From: Archangium violaceum
Lineage (GTDB): Bacteria; Myxococcota; Myxococcia; Myxococcales; Myxococcaceae
Assembly (NCBI RefSeq): GCF_016859125.1
Contig: NZ_CP069338.1
Span: forward strand, 10,853,501 to 10,917,500
Direction of reading: 5' to 3'
Length of the DNA: 64,000 nucleotides
Shown: positions 23,566 through 61,616 of the stretch, piece by piece
Position numbering within the stretch: position 1 is the first letter of the stretch
How the letters are laid out: the number at the start of each line of letters is the position of its first letter
The notes under the pieces: model-generated
Seen by the model: the letters and a program-made list of their open reading frames with translations, nothing else
Database searches by the model: none
Told to the model about the DNA's origin: nothing
Translations under genes and position numbers: made by a program

Positions 23566-24477
23566 TCACGGGTGTCGCGGTTCCGCCTGCTCCCGCGCGT
23601 AATGCGTTGGCGGCAGTCCGACGTGGCGAGTGAAGGCAACGCTGAAGGTGCTCGCGGAGCTGTAGCCGACCTGCTCCGCGACCTCGGCGACAGTGACTTC
23701 CTTGCGCCGCAGCAGGTCCTTCGCCAAGGCCATGCGCCAGCCGAGCAGGTACTCCATCGGGGTAACGCCCACCGCGCGACTGAAGCGCTCGAAGAACGCC
23801 GAACGGGACAGCGCGGCCTCTTTCGCCAACTGCGCGACAGTCCACGCCTGGGTCGGGCTCTCGTGCATCCGTCGTAGCGCGACGGCAATGCGCTCGTCGG
23901 CGAGCCCGCGCAGGAGGCCCGGCGACGCCGCGGTGCCCGCCATGGAGCGGAGGGCTTCGATGAGAAGAACCTCGAGGAGGCGGGCGAGGATGACGTCGCG
24001 CGCGGGCCGCCGTTCGCGGGACTCCTCTCTCACGAGCTCCACGAGGGTGGAGAGCCTCCGCTCGCCGCGAACGTGCACGAACCGCGGAAGGAGCGAGACG
24101 AGCAAGCTCGCGTCCGGGGAAGCGAAGACGCAGTAACCCACCAGCATTCGAACATCGGGCGGGCCACTCGAGTCGCCGTGTCTGACTTCGCCATCGGGCA
24201 ACACGACGTGCGCGGTGTCGCGCCGCCCCCTCGGCGGCTCCAGGCTCGACGCCGTGAAGTCGAACGCCGACGGGATCAAGACGAAGTCCCCCTTCTCCAG
24301 AATCACCGGCTCGCGTCCGTCGACCGCAAGGCGGCTCGCACCCTCGAGGACCGCGCAATAGAAGGGCCTCCCGGTTTCCGCGCGCCGAACGCTCCACCGG
24401 CCCGCACCGCTGACGAGCTTCGAGTACGGGGCGCCCGGCTGGAGCAGCGTGACCACTTCCGCGAGCGGATCGACCAT
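23566..24477 (-). CDS. AraC-family regulator (cupin-type), copy 1
   Basis: 303-residue regulator. The N-terminal cupin-like sensor covers about residues 1-190 (GREPVILEKGDFVLIPSAFDF). The double HTH of AraC/XylS is C-terminal: WTVAQLAKEAALSRSAFFER and VTVAEVAEQVGYSSASTFS, then FTRHVGLPPTHY. It is a close paralogue of the gene at 27125. ATG at 24477; divergent SDR gene starts at 24577. The 99-bp intergenic region is also conserved at the second copy, so it likely autoregulates and controls the neighbouring oxidoreductase (inference). Confidence 0.92.
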   Translation of the reverse strand: MVDPLAEVVTLLQPGAPYSKLVSGAGRWSVRRAETGRPFYCAVLEGASRLAVDGREPVILEKGDFVLIPSAFDFTASSLEPPRGRRDTAHVVLPDGEVRHGDSSGPPDVRMLVGYCVFASPDASLLVSLLPRFVHVRGERRLSTLVELVREESRERRPARDVILARLLEVLLIEALRSMAGTAASPGLLRGLADERIAVALRRMHESPTQAWTVAQLAKEAALSRSAFFERFSRAVGVTPMEYLLGWRMALAKDLLRRKEVTVAEVAEQVGYSSASTFSVAFTRHVGLPPTHYAREQAEPRHP

Positions 24478-24540: not shown

Positions 24541-24576
24541 TCGTCTGGGACAGAAACCACCCCGACAGGAGCTGTC

Positions 24577-25335
24577 ATGAAGACGATCTTGATCACCGGA
24601 TGCTCGTCCGGATTCGGCCTCGAAACCGCCCGCTACTTCCTCGCGCGCGGCTGGAAGGTCATCGCCACGATGCGCACGCCGCGCGAGGGCGTGTTGCCCC
24701 GGTCCGAGCATCTGCGCGTGCTCGCGCTCGACGTCACCGACCCGCGGAGCATTCGCGAAATGGTGGAGGCCGCCGGACCGATCGACGTGCTGGTGAACAA
24801 CGCGGGCGTCGGCCTGCTGAGTGTCTTCGAGGGCACTTCGATGGAAACGGTCCGCGCCACCTTCGAAACGAACACGTTCGGTGTGATGGCCGTGACCCAG
24901 GCGTTCCTGCCCCGGTTCAGGCAACGGAAGGCGGGTGTCATCGTGAACGTCTCGTCGAGCACGACGCTGAAGTCGCTCCCGATGCTTGCCGTGTACACCG
25001 CGAGCAAAGCCGCGCTCAACGCGTTCACCGAGTCGCTCGCGCTGGAGCTCCAGCCCTTCAATGTGCGGGTGAGCCTCGTGATTCCGGGGCAGTCCCCGGA
25101 GACGCCCTTCTCTCAAAACGCACAGGCCCTGATGCGGAAGCAGGGCGTCGCCATTCCCGAGGCGTACTCCGACTTCGCGCGGAGCGTCTTCGAGAGAATC
25201 ACGGAGCGGCGCTCGGGGCCGTTCACCCGGTCGCTCGACGTGGCGGAAGTGATCTGGCGCGCGGTGAACGATCCGGCGTGCCCGATACGCCAGCCAGCCG
25301 GCGTGGACGCCGTGGAGCTGGCCAGGTCGAACTGA
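24577..25335 (+). CDS. Short-chain dehydrogenase/reductase
   Basis: 252-residue classical SDR. Cofactor loop TGCSSGFG lies at the N-terminus, then NNAGVG, catalytic Ser in VNVSSST and YTASK (Tyr-x-x-x-Lys). Acid after strand 2 suggests neither cofactor strongly. Start ATG 24577 has ACAGGAG upstream. Divergent from AraC copy 1. Such AraC/SDR pairs are common in transferred modules. Substrate unknown. Confidence 0.9.
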   Translation: MKTILITGCSSGFGLETARYFLARGWKVIATMRTPREGVLPRSEHLRVLALDVTDPRSIREMVEAAGPIDVLVNNAGVGLLSVFEGTSMETVRATFETNTFGVMAVTQAFLPRFRQRKAGVIVNVSSSTTLKSLPMLAVYTASKAALNAFTESLALELQPFNVRVSLVIPGQSPETPFSQNAQALMRKQGVAIPEAYSDFARSVFERITERRSGPFTRSLDVAEVIWRAVNDPACPIRQPAGVDAVELARSN

Positions 25336-25410: not shown

Positions 25411-25866
25411 TCACTTCACGCTGCCGCTGCTGCCGCCCATCATCCTCGTGGGAGACTTCTGGAGGATCTCCTCCGTCTTCGGGTCCGGCCGGGGCCGCGA
25501 AGCGAACACGACGACCACCCGCTTCAGCGAGGCCTCTCCCGCGTCCACCACCGCCACCCCCAGGTCCGAGGTGGCCCGGTCCAGCAGCACCGCGGGACGC
25601 GGCAGCCCCAGCACGTCCGGAAGCTCGTACACCGTCGCGGACGCGGTCGTCGCCTTCGGCAGCGCCTTGAGGATGCGCTCGTACACCGCCACGTCCGTGA
25701 CTTCACCGGGCCCCTGGGCGCTCCGGGCCACCTCCGCCGCCAGCGCCTCCAGCTCCGGGCTCCGGCGGAGCGCGGGCAGTTGCTTCGTGCGCAGCCGCTC
25801 CAGCACGCGGTAGGTCTTCTCGACCGTGCCACCGGAAGGCGGCGCCCCCGGCGTGTCGAGGGTCAT
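25411..25866 (-). CDS. Hypothetical protein, possibly 5'-truncated
   Basis: About 151 residues from an ATG at 25866. Middle region is helical (ERLRTKQLPALRRSPELEAL), followed by a beta-rich end (DLGVAVVDAGEASLKRVVVV). No known domain or signal sequence is recognised. The 41-bp inverted repeat of the neighbouring mobile segment begins 15 bp upstream of that ATG, so the original N-terminus may lie beyond the insertion. Confidence 0.5.
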   Translation of the reverse strand: MTLDTPGAPPSGGTVEKTYRVLERLRTKQLPALRRSPELEALAAEVARSAQGPGEVTDVAVYERILKALPKATTASATVYELPDVLGLPRPAVLLDRATSDLGVAVVDAGEASLKRVVVVFASRPRPDPKTEEILQKSPTRMMGGSSGSVK

Positions 25867-25881
25867 CACCTCCACGAGGAG

Positions 25882-25922
25882 TGAGCCTGCCCCGATTTTG
25901 TGGACACACCCAATAAGTCGGC
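25882..25922 (+). repeat. Left terminal inverted repeat of cargo segment
   Basis: Begins TGAGCCTGCCCCG and ends AATAAGTCGGC. 38 of 41 bases match the right repeat in reverse complement. Confidence 0.85.
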
Positions 25923-25924
25923 TA

Positions 25925-26060
25925 CACGGGAGGTAGTGTCCATGGAGCGACACGAACAGCCGCTGCTCTGAGATTCCAGCCCTCATCGAGCAGGCGCAGG
26001 ATGCGGATGCGACGCCAGCGTAGCTGATGAAGATCGGGTGGATGCGTGCGCGTGGACCGC
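25925..26060 (-). pseudogene. IS630-type transposase N-terminal remnant
   Basis: On the minus strand RRIRILRLLDEGWNLRAAAV is readable, matching the N-terminal helix-turn-helix of IS630/Tc1 transposases, with a stop soon after. No DDE catalytic part is seen. It adjoins the left terminal repeat, so the repeats probably belong to this IS family. Confidence 0.5.
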
Positions 26061-26074
26061 GTCCGGGCCGTTGC

Positions 26075-27019
26075 TCAACGCGCGTTGCCCGCGCGCAGCC
26101 ACGCGATGTAGTCCTCGGCCGCGCGCTGGGTGCCATAGGCGGGCTGGTAGCCGGTGTCTTGCTGAAGGCGGCTGATGTCGAGGTAGTTGTGCGGGGTCGG
26201 CTTGCCGGTGGGGAGCTCGAGCTGTGCGTCGGGAACGACGGTCCTGATCGCGGCGACGACCTCGGCATTCGTCGTCGCACGGCCAGACGCGACGTTGTAC
26301 GTGCGGTAGTTCAGACGGTCTGCGAGCTGAAGGAGCGCGATGGCGCGACCGGTGTCCTTGACGTAGCAGAGGTCAAGCGCGTTTCCTGCATAGGCGGGGA
26401 TGACGAGTCGGGACAGATCCGGCTTCGTGCCACGGGCCGCCGCGTGGATGAGCGCGGGCGCGGGGAAGAACGGATCGTCGTGACCGACTGGGCCCCAGGT
26501 GCCGGAGATCCGGTAGTTGACGATCTCGATGCCGGTGGCGCCAGACAGGTGTTCGTTGAGCAGTTCGCCGATCTTCTTGAACGTTGGGATCAGGTGTGGA
26601 GCCGACATCGGCAGCGGCATGTCTTCACGGAGGGCGCCTTCGCTCGCGACACCGGCGTAGACGCCGATCGTGCTCGCGACGCCCACGCGCTTGACGCCCC
26701 AGTTCTGGGCGGCCTGCACGATGTTGAGTAGGCCGCCGAGCGCCTTGCGGGTGGCGTCGACGGGCGGCTCGGACGTCGGAGGCCAGGGCATGGAGCCCGC
26801 GAGATGCACGATGCCGGTGATCTTGTGGCGAGTGCCGACGTCGAGCAGCGACGCCAGATCGGTGACGTCCCCCTGTGCCACCGCCACGGGCAGATCGGCG
26901 AGGTGAGCCGGGACCTCCCCGGTTCGGCGCTGGAAGAGCATGCACTTCTCGCCCATCTCGTGCAGCGCACGAACGGTGTGTGAACCGATGAAACCTGAAC
27001 CTCCGGTAACCAAGATCAT
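26075..27019 (-). CDS. NAD-dependent epimerase/dehydratase family protein
   Basis: 314-residue extended SDR. NAD site VTGGSGFIGSHTV is at residues 4-16, VHLAGSMPWP follows, then VASTIGVYAG. The usual catalytic Tyr-x-x-x-Lys is not intact: HLIPTFKKIGE has Lys but no Tyr at the expected place, so classical sugar-epimerase chemistry is doubtful. C-terminal YNVASGRATTNAEVVAAIR and YLDISRLQQDTGY are family features. Divergent from AraC copy 2; presumably its target. Confidence 0.85.
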   Translation of the reverse strand: MILVTGGSGFIGSHTVRALHEMGEKCMLFQRRTGEVPAHLADLPVAVAQGDVTDLASLLDVGTRHKITGIVHLAGSMPWPPTSEPPVDATRKALGGLLNIVQAAQNWGVKRVGVASTIGVYAGVASEGALREDMPLPMSAPHLIPTFKKIGELLNEHLSGATGIEIVNYRISGTWGPVGHDDPFFPAPALIHAAARGTKPDLSRLVIPAYAGNALDLCYVKDTGRAIALLQLADRLNYRTYNVASGRATTNAEVVAAIRTVVPDAQLELPTGKPTPHNYLDISRLQQDTGYQPAYGTQRAAEDYIAWLRAGNAR

Positions 27020-27044
27020 TTGTAACTCCTTCGTAGATGGTGGT

Positions 27045-27124
27045 CTTCAGCACCCAGACGATAGGAGGCAGAGGCAGGACGTTCTACAATAGGGAGTCCG
27101 TATTTCGTTTGCAGGAGTCCGGCC
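27045..27124. promoter_or_regulatory. Conserved divergent control region, copy 2
   Basis: Counterpart of 24478-24540, placed between the epimerase and AraC copy 2. Shared blocks include CCAGACGATAGG, AGTCCGTAT and CGTTTGCAGGAGTCCGG. Confidence 0.55.
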
Positions 27125-28054
27125 ATGATCGATCCGCTTGCCGAGGTAGTCACGCTGCTCCAGCCGGGCGCTCCGTTCTCGAAGCTCGTCAGCGGTGCAG
27201 GTCGGTGGAGCGTTCGCCGCGCGGAAGCCGGGGGGCCCTTCTACTGCGCGATCCTCGATGGTGCGAGCCGCCTTGCGGTCGACGGACACGAGCCGGTGAT
27301 CCTCGAGAAGGGTGACTTCGTTCTGGTCCCCTCGGTGTTCAACTTCACGGCGTCGAGCCTCGAGCCGCCGAGGGGCAAGAGCGACACCGCGTACGTCGTA
27401 TTGCCCGATGGCGAAGTCAGACACGGCAATCCAGGCGGCCCTCCCGACGTTCGAATGCTGGTGGGCTACTGCGTCTTCGGTTCCCCGGATGCGAGCTTGC
27501 TGGTCTCGCTCCTCCCGCGGCTCGTGCATGTTCGAGGGGAGCGACGGCTCTCCACCCTCGTGCAGCTCGTGAGAGAGGAGTCCCGCGAACGGCGGCCCGC
27601 CCGTGATGTCATCCTGGCTCGCCTCCTTGAGGTTCTTCTCATCGAAGCCCTCCGCTCCACGGCGGGGACTGCGGCGTCGCCGGGCCTCCTGCGCGGCCTC
27701 GCCGACGAGCGCCTCTCCGCCGCGATACGACGAATGCACGAGAGCCCGACCAAGGCGTGGACGGTCGCGCAGTTGGCGAAAGAGGCGGCACTCTCTCGTT
27801 CGGCGTTTTTCGAGCGCTTCAGCCGCGCGGTGGGCGTTGCCCCGATGGAGTACCTGCTCGGCTGGCGCATGGCCCTAGCGAAGGACCTACTGCGGCGGAA
27901 GGAAATCACTGTCGCCGAGGTCGCTGAGCAAGTCGGCTACAGCTCCGCGAGCACGTTCAGCGTTGCGTTCACCCGCTACGTCGGGTTGCCGCCGACGCAG
28001 TACGTGCGGCGATCAGCGCCAGCTTTGGGCTTGCCCCAGTTACGTGGACAGTAG
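27125..28054 (+). CDS. AraC-family regulator (cupin-type), copy 2
   Basis: 309-residue paralogue of the regulator at 23566, alike over nearly its entire length, with the same cupin sensor (HEPVILEKGDFVLVPSVFNF) and two HTH motifs (WTVAQLAKEAALSRSAFFER, then AEVAEQVGYSSASTFS). It differs mainly at the very C-terminus (TQYVRRSAPALGLPQ). ATG at 27125 matches the start of copy 1. It lies inside the inverted-repeat-bounded segment, in opposite orientation to copy 1, so the two could have arisen by duplication or separate acquisition. Confidence 0.92.
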   Translation: MIDPLAEVVTLLQPGAPFSKLVSGAGRWSVRRAEAGGPFYCAILDGASRLAVDGHEPVILEKGDFVLVPSVFNFTASSLEPPRGKSDTAYVVLPDGEVRHGNPGGPPDVRMLVGYCVFGSPDASLLVSLLPRLVHVRGERRLSTLVQLVREESRERRPARDVILARLLEVLLIEALRSTAGTAASPGLLRGLADERLSAAIRRMHESPTKAWTVAQLAKEAALSRSAFFERFSRAVGVAPMEYLLGWRMALAKDLLRRKEITVAEVAEQVGYSSASTFSVAFTRYVGLPPTQYVRRSAPALGLPQLRGQ

Positions 28055-28063
28055 GGTTAAGAT

Positions 28064-28104
28064 GCCGACTTATGAGGTGTGTCCACAAAACCGGGGCAGG
28101 CTCA
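28064..28104 (-). repeat. Right terminal inverted repeat of cargo segment
   Basis: Reverse complement begins TGAGCCTGCCCCG and ends CATAAGTCGGC; pairs with 25882-25922. Confidence 0.85.
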
Positions 28105-28215
28105 CTTCGAAGTCGAACGTCTTCCTCAGCAGTTCCGCCCAGTCCACTCGCGGCGTCCTCTCCTTCTTCGGCTCCTTCCTGGCCTCCGCCTCAAGCGCCA
28201 CGCTCGTCTCCCCCG
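28105..28215 (-). mobile_element. IS91-family transposase 3' fragment
   Basis: Base-for-base like part of the 39376 and 43268 copies: minus strand encodes the [20 protein letters not shown] and LLRKTFDFD segment. Its right edge fuses to the Imm52-like gene. Confidence 0.75.
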
Positions 28216-28553
28216 CTGCTCACGTGCCCGGACGCCCCGGCCGACGTGATGCCCGCCGTTACCCCGTGCGTCCCCTCCACGTATCCCGTCCAGGCGCGGA
28301 AGATGAAGCCACCTTCTGCGAAGCGGCCCTTGCTTCGCCCGAAGAACCGCGCGAAGGCCTCCCGCGTGGGCTCAAAGCCAAGTTGCAGCGACTCCTCGGC
28401 TGAACGGCCCTCCTCGTACCACCGCGAGAACGACGGATGGCACTGCGCCAGTAGCCGGAAGAACGTCTCCGCCCTCCCCGCCCACTCCTCTCTGGACTCC
28501 TCACGCCGGCGCCAGAAGGCCGTTGCCGAGTACGCCTCTACATGACGACCCAT
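28216..28553 (-). pseudogene. Imm52-like immunity protein, 3'-truncated
   Basis: About 110 residues similar to the Imm52 immunity family of polymorphic toxin systems: EAYSATAFWRRREESREEWA, LLAQCHPSFSRWYEEGRS and FARFFGRSKGRF. The remaining half is lost where an IS91 transposase fragment begins (after GASGHVSS). ATG at 28553 overlaps the stop of the preceding gene by 16 bp, which is operon-style coupling. With the SitA5-like toxin upstream, it was probably a cognate or orphan immunity gene. Confidence 0.62.
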
Positions 28554-32966: not shown

Positions 32967-33097
32967 TCGAAGTCGAACGTCTTCCTCAGGAGTTCCGCCC
33001 AGTCCACTCGCGGCGTCCTCTCCATCTGCGGCTCCTTCCTGGCCGCTGCCTCAAGCGCCACGCTCTCCTCCCCCGCTCCTGCTGCTTGGGGGAGCCC
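32967..33097 (-). mobile_element. IS91-family transposase 3' fragment
   Basis: Similar to the 39376 and 43268 copies over the LLRKTFDFD and ARKEP coding part; right edge is the recurrent GCTTGGGGGAG boundary, where a molybdenum oxidoreductase fragment starts. Confidence 0.72.
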
Positions 33098-34075: not shown

Positions 34076-34576
34076 TCATCTGGATGAAGGATTCCGCTCC
34101 GCGGTGATGAGTTTTGCCAGAAGATTGGAAAGTTGTTCCTGTTCGCTCTTCGTGAGGACGCTCAGGATCATCTGTTGGTTTCGTACGTGCGGGCCAATGG
34201 CGCGTTCAATCACATCCAGCCCTTTGGGCGTCAGCGCGACCAGTGTCCCACGGCGGTCGGTTGGATGCGGTCTGCGCTTGACCAACCCCGCCTTTTCCAG
34301 CCGGTCGATGCGGTTGGTCATGCTTCCGGAGGAGATCATCGCGGCATCGTATAACGCGGTTGGCGTCAGCTCATAGGGGGCGCCGCTCCGCCTCAAGGTC
34401 GCCAGGACATCGAACTCTCCAGGTTGGAGTCCGTACTCGGCGAAGAGCGGATTGAGTCGATCCTGGGCAATATGGTGCGCCGCTTCGAGCAAGCGGCCCA
34501 GCACCACCATGGGTCCCGTTTCGATATCTGGCCGTTCCCTTCGCCACTGCTCGGCCGCCTTCATCGCGCGATCCAT
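34076..34576 (-). CDS. MarR-family transcriptional regulator
   Basis: 166-residue winged-helix regulator: LQPGEFDVLATLRRSGAPYE, the recognition helix region MISSGSMTNRIDRLEKAGLV and wing KRRPHPTDRRGTLVALT. ATG at 34576 (MDRAMKAAEQW) has GGAG eight bases upstream. A start at 34618 is in frame but would put the GGAGATATCTCC palindrome inside the gene. Divergent from the MFS transporter, which it probably represses through the intervening palindromes. Confidence 0.88.
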   Translation of the reverse strand: MDRAMKAAEQWRRERPDIETGPMVVLGRLLEAAHHIAQDRLNPLFAEYGLQPGEFDVLATLRRSGAPYELTPTALYDAAMISSGSMTNRIDRLEKAGLVKRRPHPTDRRGTLVALTPKGLDVIERAIGPHVRNQQMILSVLTKSEQEQLSNLLAKLITAERNPSSR

Positions 34577-34602
34577 CTTGCTCCGTCCATGTGTCTTGAC
34601 AT

Positions 34603-34638
34603 GGAGATATCTCCCCATGTATCTCGGCGTGGAGATAC
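34603..34638. promoter_or_regulatory. Candidate MarR operators
   Basis: Two palindromes between marR and the MFS gene: GGAGATATCTCC (34603-34614) and GTATCTC-N6-GAGATAC (34619-34638). Size and place suit MarR dimers. Confidence 0.6.
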
Positions 34639-34703
34639 TCTACGTCGAGATGAATGCGGGTGCAAACCGGGAGCGCGCCTCGTGGCCCCGCCGAAAGGCG
34701 AAC

Positions 34704-35879
34704 ATGTCGAAGTTCGGGAAAAGCTCCTTGTTGTTGCTCATCGCCATCGTCCTGGTTGGCTTGAATCTGCGTCCGGCGCTTGCGTCCATCGGGCCGCTTC
34801 TCGACGCGATTCAACGGGCGATCGGCCTCACCGACACACGCGCGAGTCTGCTGACCACCATTCCAGTCTTTCTCATGGGGGCCTGTGCGCTCAGCGCCTA
34901 TCGCCTGCGGCGGCTGACGGGTGAGCGTTACGGTATCCTGCTCGGAATCGCTGTCATCGGGTTGGCGTGCGCGGGGCGCGCCGGGGTCTCTACCGGCGCG
35001 GGGCTGGTCGGAACGGCTGTGGCCGCTGGCATCGGGATCGCCATTGTGCAGGCATTGCTGCCGGCCTTCATCAGACGCTGTTTCGCTGAAAGGGCCGGCG
35101 GAGTCATGGGTTACTACTCGACCGCGATCATGGGAGGAGCTGTATCCGCGAGCGTGCTGTCCCCGCGTCTGGCCAGCCACTTCGGGTGGGTGGCGGCGTT
35201 GGCGAGCTGGTGCCTTCCCGCCCTGCTCGCGGCAGGAGCGTGGATGCTGGCAACTCGTGGAGCGGGACACTCCGTTGTCATCACCGAAGCAACCAGGACA
35301 CCGTTTTCCCGCAGTCCACGCGCCTGGCTCCTCGCGCTGTTCTTCGGGCTTGGCACTGGCGCCTACACGCTCGTTCTTGCGTGGCTTCCTCCCTACTACA
35401 CGGGCCTGGGGTGGACTCCGGTGGACGCAGGAGAATTGCTCGGCGTGGTGACGCTCGCCGAAGTCGTCGCGGGTCTTGCTGTGTCCTTCTGGATCGACCG
35501 CCTGCCAGATCGACGGCCGGCCCTCCTCTCTGCGATTCTGTCGCTATTCGTCGGCCTGCTCTGTCTGCTCATCGCCCCCCTTCAACTGGCCTTGCCGTCC
35601 GCCATCTTGATGGGGCTCGGCATCGGCGCGCTGTTCCCCTTGTCATTGATTGTCGCGATGGACCATGCGAGCGATCCCCGCCAGGCCGGTGAGCTCGCCG
35701 CCTTCGTGCAGGGGAGCGGATATCTGATCGCCGCGACGTTCCCCTTCATTGCCGGCGTTCTCCGGCAACACATGGCCAGTCTCGGCCTGGCCTGGGTGCT
35801 GATGGCGGGTCTCTCTCTCGTGCTCGTCGGAATCGCCCTGCGCTTCTCGCCTGCGTCATACGCCCGGATGAGCGGGTAA
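34704..35879 (+). CDS. MFS transporter, CynX/NimT family
   Basis: 391-residue inner membrane transporter with about 12 hydrophobic helices. Family sequence NLRPALASIGPLLDAIQ at the first loop is the CynX/NimT (cyanate, 2-nitroimidazole) signature. ATG at 34704 has GAAAGG upstream; an earlier ATG at 34650 gives an 18-residue basic extension. Under likely control of the divergent MarR protein, which fits a drug or metabolite efflux role. The substrate is not predictable. Confidence 0.86.
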   Translation: MSKFGKSSLLLLIAIVLVGLNLRPALASIGPLLDAIQRAIGLTDTRASLLTTIPVFLMGACALSAYRLRRLTGERYGILLGIAVIGLACAGRAGVSTGAGLVGTAVAAGIGIAIVQALLPAFIRRCFAERAGGVMGYYSTAIMGGAVSASVLSPRLASHFGWVAALASWCLPALLAAGAWMLATRGAGHSVVITEATRTPFSRSPRAWLLALFFGLGTGAYTLVLAWLPPYYTGLGWTPVDAGELLGVVTLAEVVAGLAVSFWIDRLPDRRPALLSAILSLFVGLLCLLIAPLQLALPSAILMGLGIGALFPLSLIVAMDHASDPRQAGELAAFVQGSGYLIAATFPFIAGVLRQHMASLGLAWVLMAGLSLVLVGIALRFSPASYARMSG

Positions 35880-37160: not shown

Positions 37161-37445
37161 GCATAAGAAAAATGGGAGGCCGGTTGAAGGTGAGGGCTGG
37201 AGCGGAGGGGCCGAGGAGAGCCGCGGACGGGAGCCGCCCGAGCTGTGTGCCAGGCCCGTGTAGGGGGCCGAGCACCCCCATAGGGCACACTGCTGCCCAG
37301 GCCGCCCTCCCATCAGGGCGCGGCAAGAGCCTGAGCTGGGCCTGTGGGTTGTCTTGAGCGCCTCAACACCACGCTGCCTGGGCTCCTTCCTGGCCGCTGC
37401 CTCGCGCGCCACGCTCGCCTCCCCCGCTCCTGCTGCTTGGGGGAG
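37161..37445. mobile_element. IS91-end repeat, short copy
   Basis: Starts GCATAAG, has the TTGAAGG...GGGCTGGAGCGGAGG interior and CCCATAGGGCACAC block homologous to the other copies, and ends at the recurrent GCTTGGGGGAG boundary. It lacks about 200 bp of the transposase end present in the 39376 copy. Confidence 0.75.
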
Positions 37446-39383: not shown

Positions 39384-39859
39384 GAAGGATGGGAGGTCTG
39401 TTGAGGGAGTGGGCTGGAGCAGAGAGGTGGAGGAGGGCCGCTGAAGGGGGCCGGCCGAGTGGTGCGCCAGGCCGGTGGAGAGGCCGCGCAGTCCCCTTGG
39501 GGTACACGCCGGCCCAGGCCGTCATCCCAGGAGGGGTGCGGCAGGGGACGTGGGCCTCTTGGCTCTCTTGAGCCTCAACACCACGCGGCCTTATGTGGCC
39601 CTCGCTCTGGGGCCAGACGCGCACCTGCCATGGGCAATCCCTGGTGCTCCAAAATCTCTCGCACCCCGCTCGCTTGCTTCACGTACGCCAACACACTCCG
39701 CCTGCCTCCACCTCTCTCGCAGGCCAACACGTCGAAGTCGAACGTCTTCCTCAGCAGTTCCGCCCAGTCCACTCGCGGCGTCCTCTCCTTCTTCGGCTCC
39801 TTCCTGGCCTCCGCCTCAAGCGCCACGCTCGTCTCCCCCTCTCCTGCTGCTTGGGGGAG
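39376..39859. mobile_element. IS91-end repeat, 484-bp copy
   Basis: Starts GCGTATAAG and contains the transposase 3' end on the minus strand ([20 protein letters not shown], then KAAWC and stop). By eye it differs from 43268-43751 at one base. Right edge GCTTGGGGGAG. Left flank is an RCC1 gene and right flank a DeoR gene, both truncated. Confidence 0.85.
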
Positions 39860-43267: not shown

Positions 43268-44604
43268 GCGTATAAGAAGGATGGGAGGTCTGTTGAGGGA
43301 GTGGGCTGGAGCAGAGAGGTGGAGGAGGGCCGCTGAAGGGGGCCGGCCGAGTGGTGCGCCAGGCCGGTGGAGAGGCCGCGCAGTCCCCTTGGGGTACACG
43401 CCGGCCCAGGCCGTCATCCCAGGAGGGGTGCGGCAGGGGACGTGGGCCTCTTGGCTCTCTTGAGCCTCAACACCACGCGGCCTTATGTGGCCCTCGCTCT
43501 GGGGCCAGACGCGCACCTGCCATGGGCAATCCCTGGTGCTCCAAAATCTCTCGCACCCCGCTCGCTTGCTTCACGTACGCCAACACACTCCGCCTGCCTC
43601 CACCTCTCTCGCAGGCCAACACGTCGAAGTCGAACGTCTTCCTCAGCAGTTCCGCCCAGTCCACTCGCGGCGTCCTCTCCTTCTTCGGCTCCTTCCTGGC
43701 CTCCGCCTCAAGCGCCACGCTCGTCTCCCCCGCTCCTGCTGCTTGGGGGACCAGAAATGGCCGCAGTTTTGCGCCTGGAGCGAAGACGCCGTGGAACCTC
43801 GTGAGATTTGCCCGAGGCGGAGGCACCAGGGACGCCACTCGCCGTAACAGTTCCAGCCCGGTGAAGAGCAGGTGCGTGGTGCCGTCCGGCAGCGGCCGCT
43901 TCATTCGGTAGGCGATGCGGCCGTCCTCCGCTCGTGACAAACGCTCCAGCGCCAGCGCACCGCGCGCCCCGTAGCGGCACAGCCGCTCCAGCCCCAGCCT
44001 GTCGTTGGCGTGAAGGTGCGTGTTGGCATGCAGGGAGAAGCCCTCCAGGACGGCGCACCGGGGTTGCTTTCGGGGAGGGGGCCGCACGTCCACCTCCGTC
44101 CAGCGCAGTCGCTGCTGCAGGGAATGCGCCTGGTACGCCTGCAGCGCGTCCTCGGGCCCTTGCGCGGGCAGGGCCCCTCTTTTCTCCAACAGCCGCAGCA
44201 CCCGGTGCCGCACCACCTTCAGCAGCCGCTCCACCTCGCCTTGCGTGGGCGGCGGCAACGGCTCGAAGCGCACGCCACCCTCCTCCGGCACGAAGACGCC
44301 GTCCGGCACCAGCGAGTGGAAGTGAGGCGTCACTTGCAAGGCCGAGCCGAAGAACTGGATGAACGACACGGCCCCTGGCTGCCCACCCCGCAGGCCCTGC
44401 CGCCGTGCCCTTCGGCGCTGCAGGGCTTGCCCCCGCGCGCAGGAAGAGGGTGAGGACGTCCGAGAGCAGTCCCACGTCCTTGAGCAGCACCCAGCGCACC
44501 CGGTGCGGAAAGGACAGCGTCCACTGCCGGTAGGGCACGTGCGGCAGCACCCGCTCCACCAGGTGCTCCGCTGTGACATGCGCCCGTTTCGCATTGCAGG
44601 CAGG
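43268..44604. mobile_element. IS91-family element, 5'-truncated
   Basis: Starts GCGTATAAG (the end downstream of the transposase, which in IS91 is the replication-origin side) and extends through most of the transposase. The far end is lost where ISAs1-related DNA begins. This is the longest copy of the family in the window. IS91 elements move by rolling circle, lack inverted repeats and give no target duplication. Confidence 0.82.
43467..44604 (-). pseudogene. IS91-family transposase, frameshifted and N-terminally truncated
   Basis: Y2-type/IS801-IS1294 transposase. Homology starts at [20 protein letters not shown] (CPSC zinc-binding region already cut), continues through [19 protein letters not shown] and [12 protein letters not shown], shifts frame near 44430, then [20 protein letters not shown] (the HFH/HxH metal site), [34 protein letters not shown] and the CPRCGG-like end ([11 protein letters not shown]). 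The frameshift and lost N-terminus make it non-functional, though a source copy elsewhere may act on the repeats. Confidence 0.85.
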
Positions 44605-61097: not shown

Positions 61098-61616
61098 CTC
61101 CCCCAAGCAGGAGCGGAGGAGAGGAGCGTGAGGCGCCCCCAGGTAGGAGCAGAGGAGGCGAGCGTGGCGCCGGAGGCAGGGGCGAGGCAGGAGCGGAGGA
61201 ATGAGAGGACGCCGCCAGTAGACTTTCGCGGGGCTGCTGCGCAGGACATTCGCGGTGGACGTGTTCACCTGCGTCAGGTGTGGAGGCAGGCGGCGGGTGT
61301 TGGCGGGCCGTGAAGGGAGCAACAGGGGTGCGCGCGATTCTGGAGCACCTGGGGTTGCCCACGAAGAGTGCGAGCCTGGCCTCGGCGCGAGCGCCCCCTC
61401 AGGCCGCGTGGTGTTGAGGCTCAAGACAGCCAAGAGGCCCACGTCCCCTGCCGCACCCCTCCTGGGAGGACGGCCTGGGCCGGCGTGTACCCCAAGGGGA
61501 CTGCGCGGCCTCTCCACCGGCCTGGCTCACCACTCGGCCGGCCCCCGTCTGCGGCCCTCCTCCACCTCTCTGCTCCAGCCCTCTCCCTCCACTCGCCTCC
61601 CCTCCTTCTTATGCGC
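61098..61616. mobile_element. IS91-end repeat, inverted copy
   Basis: Reverse orientation relative to 39376. Its GCGCATAAG start lies at 61608-61616 and the CTCCCCCAAGC boundary at 61098-61108. Transposase end on the plus strand (VDVFTCVRCGGRRRVL). Sequence is clearly diverged from the 39376 and 43268 copies. Confidence 0.82.

Follow-up and report, generated by a model that had tools for sequence, protein, structure and literature searches.

A transposase-less epimerase and AraC-type regulator unit with IS3-family left ends at both tips in two Archangium species

A 2223-bp unit in Archangium violaceum carries two cargo genes between inverted ends of an IS3-family insertion sequence (IS), and its recurrence as an exactly bounded unit in a second Archangium species is confirmed. 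The unit occupies positions 25882-28104 of the window (the whole 64,000-nucleotide stretch of DNA that was analysed), is assigned to neither strand, and has a tip-to-tip counterpart in genome G005 (C1:1257036-1259258). Both outer tips are the left end of the IS (IRL), facing outward, and do not form a left/right pair; the right end (IRR) lies inside the unit and faces inward. It is probable that the unit derives from an inverted IS3 composite transposon that was reduced to a cassette of the mobile insertion cassette (MIC) type, with intact IS copies mobilising it in trans. The anatomy of the unit, the identity of its ends, the presence of full-length IS copies in the genome and the exact recurrence in a second species were observed directly and are the basis for this reading.

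The left end (25882-25950, forward strand) consists of IS positions 1-69, from IRL up to the start of orfA (ATGGAGCGA); among sequence variants it comes nearest to CCCAATAAGTC, which is seen in G002 and G005. It is followed by a scrap that is not of IS3 origin (25951-26060, reverse strand) and that is possibly the N-terminus of an HTH_23-like transposase, on a weak, sub-threshold match to HTH_23 (E 0.0045). The cargo comprises a gene for an NAD-dependent epimerase/dehydratase of 314 amino acids (PF01370; 26075-27019, reverse strand) and, divergent from it, the gene for its probable regulator, an AraC-type protein of 309 amino acids with Cupin_6 and HTH_18 domains (27125-28054, forward strand). 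The final codons and stop of the regulator gene are supplied by a 79-bp mini-IS (28026-28104, reverse strand), in which IS positions 1211-1263 (IRR, tip at 28026) are fused to positions 1-41 (IRL, tip at 28104), with a 15-bp overlap of similar sequence at the deletion joint. This mini-IS is an internally deleted IS, complete with both IRR and IRL, and it lies inverted, with its right end inward and its left end outward. Its IRL (28064-28104, reverse strand) is identical at 41 of 41 positions to full-length IS copies of the same genome.

The inverted ends (25882-25922 and 28064-28104) agree at 38 of 41 positions, as the original prediction had stated, and a chance origin is not expected, because the 26-bp tip, searched with up to three mismatches allowed, did not occur in any of 100 shuffled versions of the window. 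These ends enclose no transposase gene. The predicted content of two cargo genes, an epimerase gene and an AraC-type gene, thus stands, whereas the IS630 type proposed for the scrap is possible rather than established. That the ends are those of an IS3-family element, and that the right end is a complete mini-IS, had been overlooked.

When the unit was used as a query against the window's own Archangium genome (12.68 Mb, one contig), many short matches to both ends were returned, and reading of these loci yielded eight full-length IS copies. The element is 1262-1263 bp long with TG...CA ends, and the eight copies are 99.8-100% identical to one another. Four of them have an open orfB with an intact DDE frame, and an intact IS lies, for example, at genome position 1964024; the remaining four lack one base and have a frameshift in orfB. 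The element belongs to the IS3 family and not to IS630, since OrfB matches NF033516 (E 1.9e-117) and contains an rve domain (PF00665), OrfA carries HTH_Tnp_1 (PF01527), and an A7 slippery site lies between the two frames. OrfB scores 392 bits with the IS3 profile and 19.5 bits with the IS630 profile, against a cut-off of 100. The ends sought on an intact IS630 element therefore do occur on a full-length IS, but on one of another family, and no TA duplication accompanies the unit.

A search of 58 family genomes recovered the left end of the IS from six Archangium genomes, from one genome of a second genus and from no others, and a scan of a genome collection, which may omit records near the window, returned only Archangium records. 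Many truncated IS copies in these genomes retain an intact left tip, so that such tips are common scars. Target-site duplications are irregular: among the eight full-length copies they measure 3-4 bp in three and 2 bp in one and are absent from four, as well as from the three copies that were examined in other genomes. Two full-length copies face each other with their left ends inward, 2.2 kb apart, at genome positions 8412682-8414885 (L023 1383-3586); a 3-bp target duplication is present at one copy of this pair and absent at the other.

The unit in G005 is complete at 2223 bp and differs by 11 substitutions (99.5% identity). The match between the two genomes ends exactly at both tips, and the flanks are unrelated. 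Because rpoB of the same two species is only 96.9% identical (3.1% difference), the unit was shared more recently than rpoB diverged. Such a near-identical package, with identical edges but located elsewhere in the genome of a related species, makes it likely that the unit moved as one piece, helped by intact IS copies. Of 96 family genomes, only the two that contain the unit show the pattern of the mini-IS joint, and no dispersal of the mini-IS as a MITE was found among the 96. No full-length copy of the same IS is present in G005. Among the matches listed for plasmid records there are only relatives of single cargo genes, at 66-73%, and phage records contained no match to the unit.

These results bear out part of the original prediction of a movable module that depends on a helper transposase, in that its boundary is coherent, a near-identical unit exists elsewhere and full-length IS copies reside in the genome; the helper, however, would be of the IS3 family rather than IS630, and no target-site duplication accompanies the putative transposition in either genome. 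Ends found only here, or as part of a larger intact IS, had been named as grounds for refutation. In that wording the grounds do not apply: the ends are indeed carried by intact IS copies, yet the unit is separate from these and recurrent.

The left flank of the unit (25411-25881, reverse strand) retains only the C-terminal part of a gene; homologues of this gene encode CAP-domain proteins ~500 amino acids long. The missing N-terminal part is absent beyond the other side of the unit, and a genome search gave only a distinct paralogue. The right flank (28106-28220, reverse strand) holds a piece of a Y2 transposase gene of IS91/ISCR-like type, and this piece is repeated at 39732, 43624 and 32967. 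In G005, an IS91-like fragment of another subtype lies to the left, and the sequence to the right runs into a glutaminase-like gene, named by reading of its ORF. The IS91-like fragments adjoining the two unit copies are of different subtypes, ~78-80% alike. Both copies can therefore not stem from the same insertion into a shared element, and we rejected the idea of a single ancestral IS91-like target of which G005 kept the left half and the window's genome the right half. No target-site duplication flanks the unit in either genome, a lack that is common here, since half of the full-length IS copies also show none. Missing duplications have been attributed to adjacent deletions, recombination or rearrangement-coupled movement (PMC11708052). 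We also rejected a separate insertion of the mini-IS, suggested by 3-bp CTT sequences at 28023-28025 and 28105-28107: the left CTT is inside the unit and is present in G005 as well, where the right flank is TGA. No empty site was found; for the G005 copy, a search with its joined flanks gave the IS91-like repeat and, as a separate match, the glutaminase-like gene, and nothing else.

Further IS91/ISCR-like (Y2_Tnp) fragments lie at 32967-33080, 37381-37431, 39732-39845, 43624-43737 and 61145-61252, and such fragments are abundant in related genomes too. Just to the right of the unit, 28191-28553 holds a fragment that matches positions 1-91 of 233 of the Imm52 immunity-protein family. A paralogous AraC-type regulator gene 1.4 kb to the left has 89% DNA identity to that of the unit, and is divergent from a predicted short-chain dehydrogenase-like gene (23566-24477 and 24570-25335).

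We infer that two 1.26-kb IS3-family copies in opposite orientation once flanked the epimerase-AraC pair, with IRL at both outer ends. Deletions would then have left 69 bp of the left copy, while the right copy would have lost its interior, its remaining 79 bp being joined at an imperfect short repeat. The IS remnants found are inverted relative to each other, and neither is a full IS. The reductions would have produced a small cassette that is bordered by matching IRL tips, lacks a transposase and could be moved in trans by OrfAB from resident intact IS3 copies; at least two Archangium species would have acquired it at different genomic places.

The origin of the cargo can be approached through its relatives. 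In G031, which belongs to another genus of the same family, the epimerase-AraC pair is 95% identical and has no IS ends at the locus examined. In G033, of the same genus as G031, the epimerase gene is likewise present without IS ends (95% DNA identity), and the AraC gene is shortened. Relative to G031, the epimerase gene of the unit carries 26 synonymous and 17 nonsynonymous substitutions and the AraC gene 21 and 17; for genes this long, these counts suggest that function has been maintained. When IS copies listed for G005, G033 and the window's genome were scanned for outward-facing left ends within 20 kb of each other, only the unit (twice) and one pair in G033 emerged. The latter (4239948-4245299) consists of a 73-bp left remnant and one full inverted IS, 5352 bp apart, enclosing other DNA, and looks like a half-reduced composite. 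The segment was not found as a unit elsewhere. Relatives thus exist for most of the proposed steps: the cargo pair without IS ends, the full-length IS, the half-reduced pair of another genus and, in two species, the completed cassette.

A different history, which we regard as unlikely, is that the unit is a dead remnant of a larger segment that another vehicle passed between the species, its flanks having been trimmed to the tips by IS-driven adjacent deletions or recombination. Such events often explain missing duplications (PMC11708052), and the unit has none; one flank in each genome looks truncated, and G005 lacks a full-length helper. Trimming would, however, have had to be exact at both tips and to leave no shared flank on either side, and the difference in subtype between the adjoining IS91-like fragments argues against descent from one site. 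These fragments raise the question of whether IS91/ISCR-like neighbours carried the unit by one-ended rolling-circle transposition. ISCR-type elements mobilise adjacent DNA and leave no duplications, and a fragment of this kind touches the unit in both genomes, but it lies to the left in G005 and to the right in the window's genome, and the DNA common to both ends exactly at the IS3 tips and not at an IS91 terminus, which makes such carriage quite improbable. Least credible of all is that two independent truncated IS3 copies happen to lie beside a resident gene pair that was never a unit. Truncated IS3 pieces with intact left tips are plentiful in this genome, but another species has the same arrangement from one tip to the other at 99.5% identity, with both deletion joints in place.

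Although we thus favour a reduced composite mobilised in trans, the stronger proposal, that a cassette with two identical left ends actively carries this regulator-enzyme pair between Archangium species, is offered only tentatively. If it is true, an IRL-IRL pair is functional in this IS3 element. In IS2, a model for the IS3 family, the left end is exclusively a recipient and cannot act as donor (PMC3299598); transposition of an IRL-IRL pair of the present element may accordingly be inefficient or fail altogether. In IS911, the N-terminal portion of the transposase can bridge a pair of right-end DNA fragments in vitro (PMC2909936). This indicates that pairing of like ends is possible, but not that left-left pairs transpose. 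The unit could serve as a direct test of whether two IS3 left ends can cooperate, contrary to the IS2 model.

Among known systems, the unit most resembles mobile insertion cassettes such as MIC231 of Bacillus cereus, associated with IS231A, and mic-qnrD, in which one or more passenger genes lie between inverted IS ends without a transposase and are mobilised in trans by the cognate IS (PMC3913671, PMC3129680). Inverted repeats that match a known IS, passenger genes and the lack of a transposase are all shared, and mobilisation in trans, for which the recurrence in a second species speaks indirectly, would be as well. Unlike MIC231 and mic-qnrD, the unit is based on the IS3 family rather than IS231, both of its ends are the left IS end, and one of them is a whole 79-bp mini-IS. 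Since it lacks both the usual left/right end pair and the usual target-site duplication, we file it as a variant MIC. The decayed composite Tn6330 (ISApl1-mcr-1-ISApl1) also retains its cargo after most of the flanking IS is lost, and its target-site duplication is sometimes lost after rearrangement (PMC5821093), but its IS copies are direct and of the IS30 family, whereas those of the unit are inverted, of the IS3 family, and have kept both outer tips. The mini-IS resembles MITEs in being an internally deleted, non-autonomous IS with IRL and IRR, yet it is not a dispersed repeat, and in the 96 genomes it occurs only within the unit. The unit would provide a natural example, with clean boundaries, of how chromosomal genes come to be packaged between IS3 ends as a cassette without a transposase.

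Another gene pair in the window also has relatives beside this IS. Positions 34076-35879 contain genes for a MarR-type regulator and an MFS-like transporter (named by ORF reading), with near-identical relatives in G003 (L103 2751-4554) that have truncated copies of the same IS3 element to either side.
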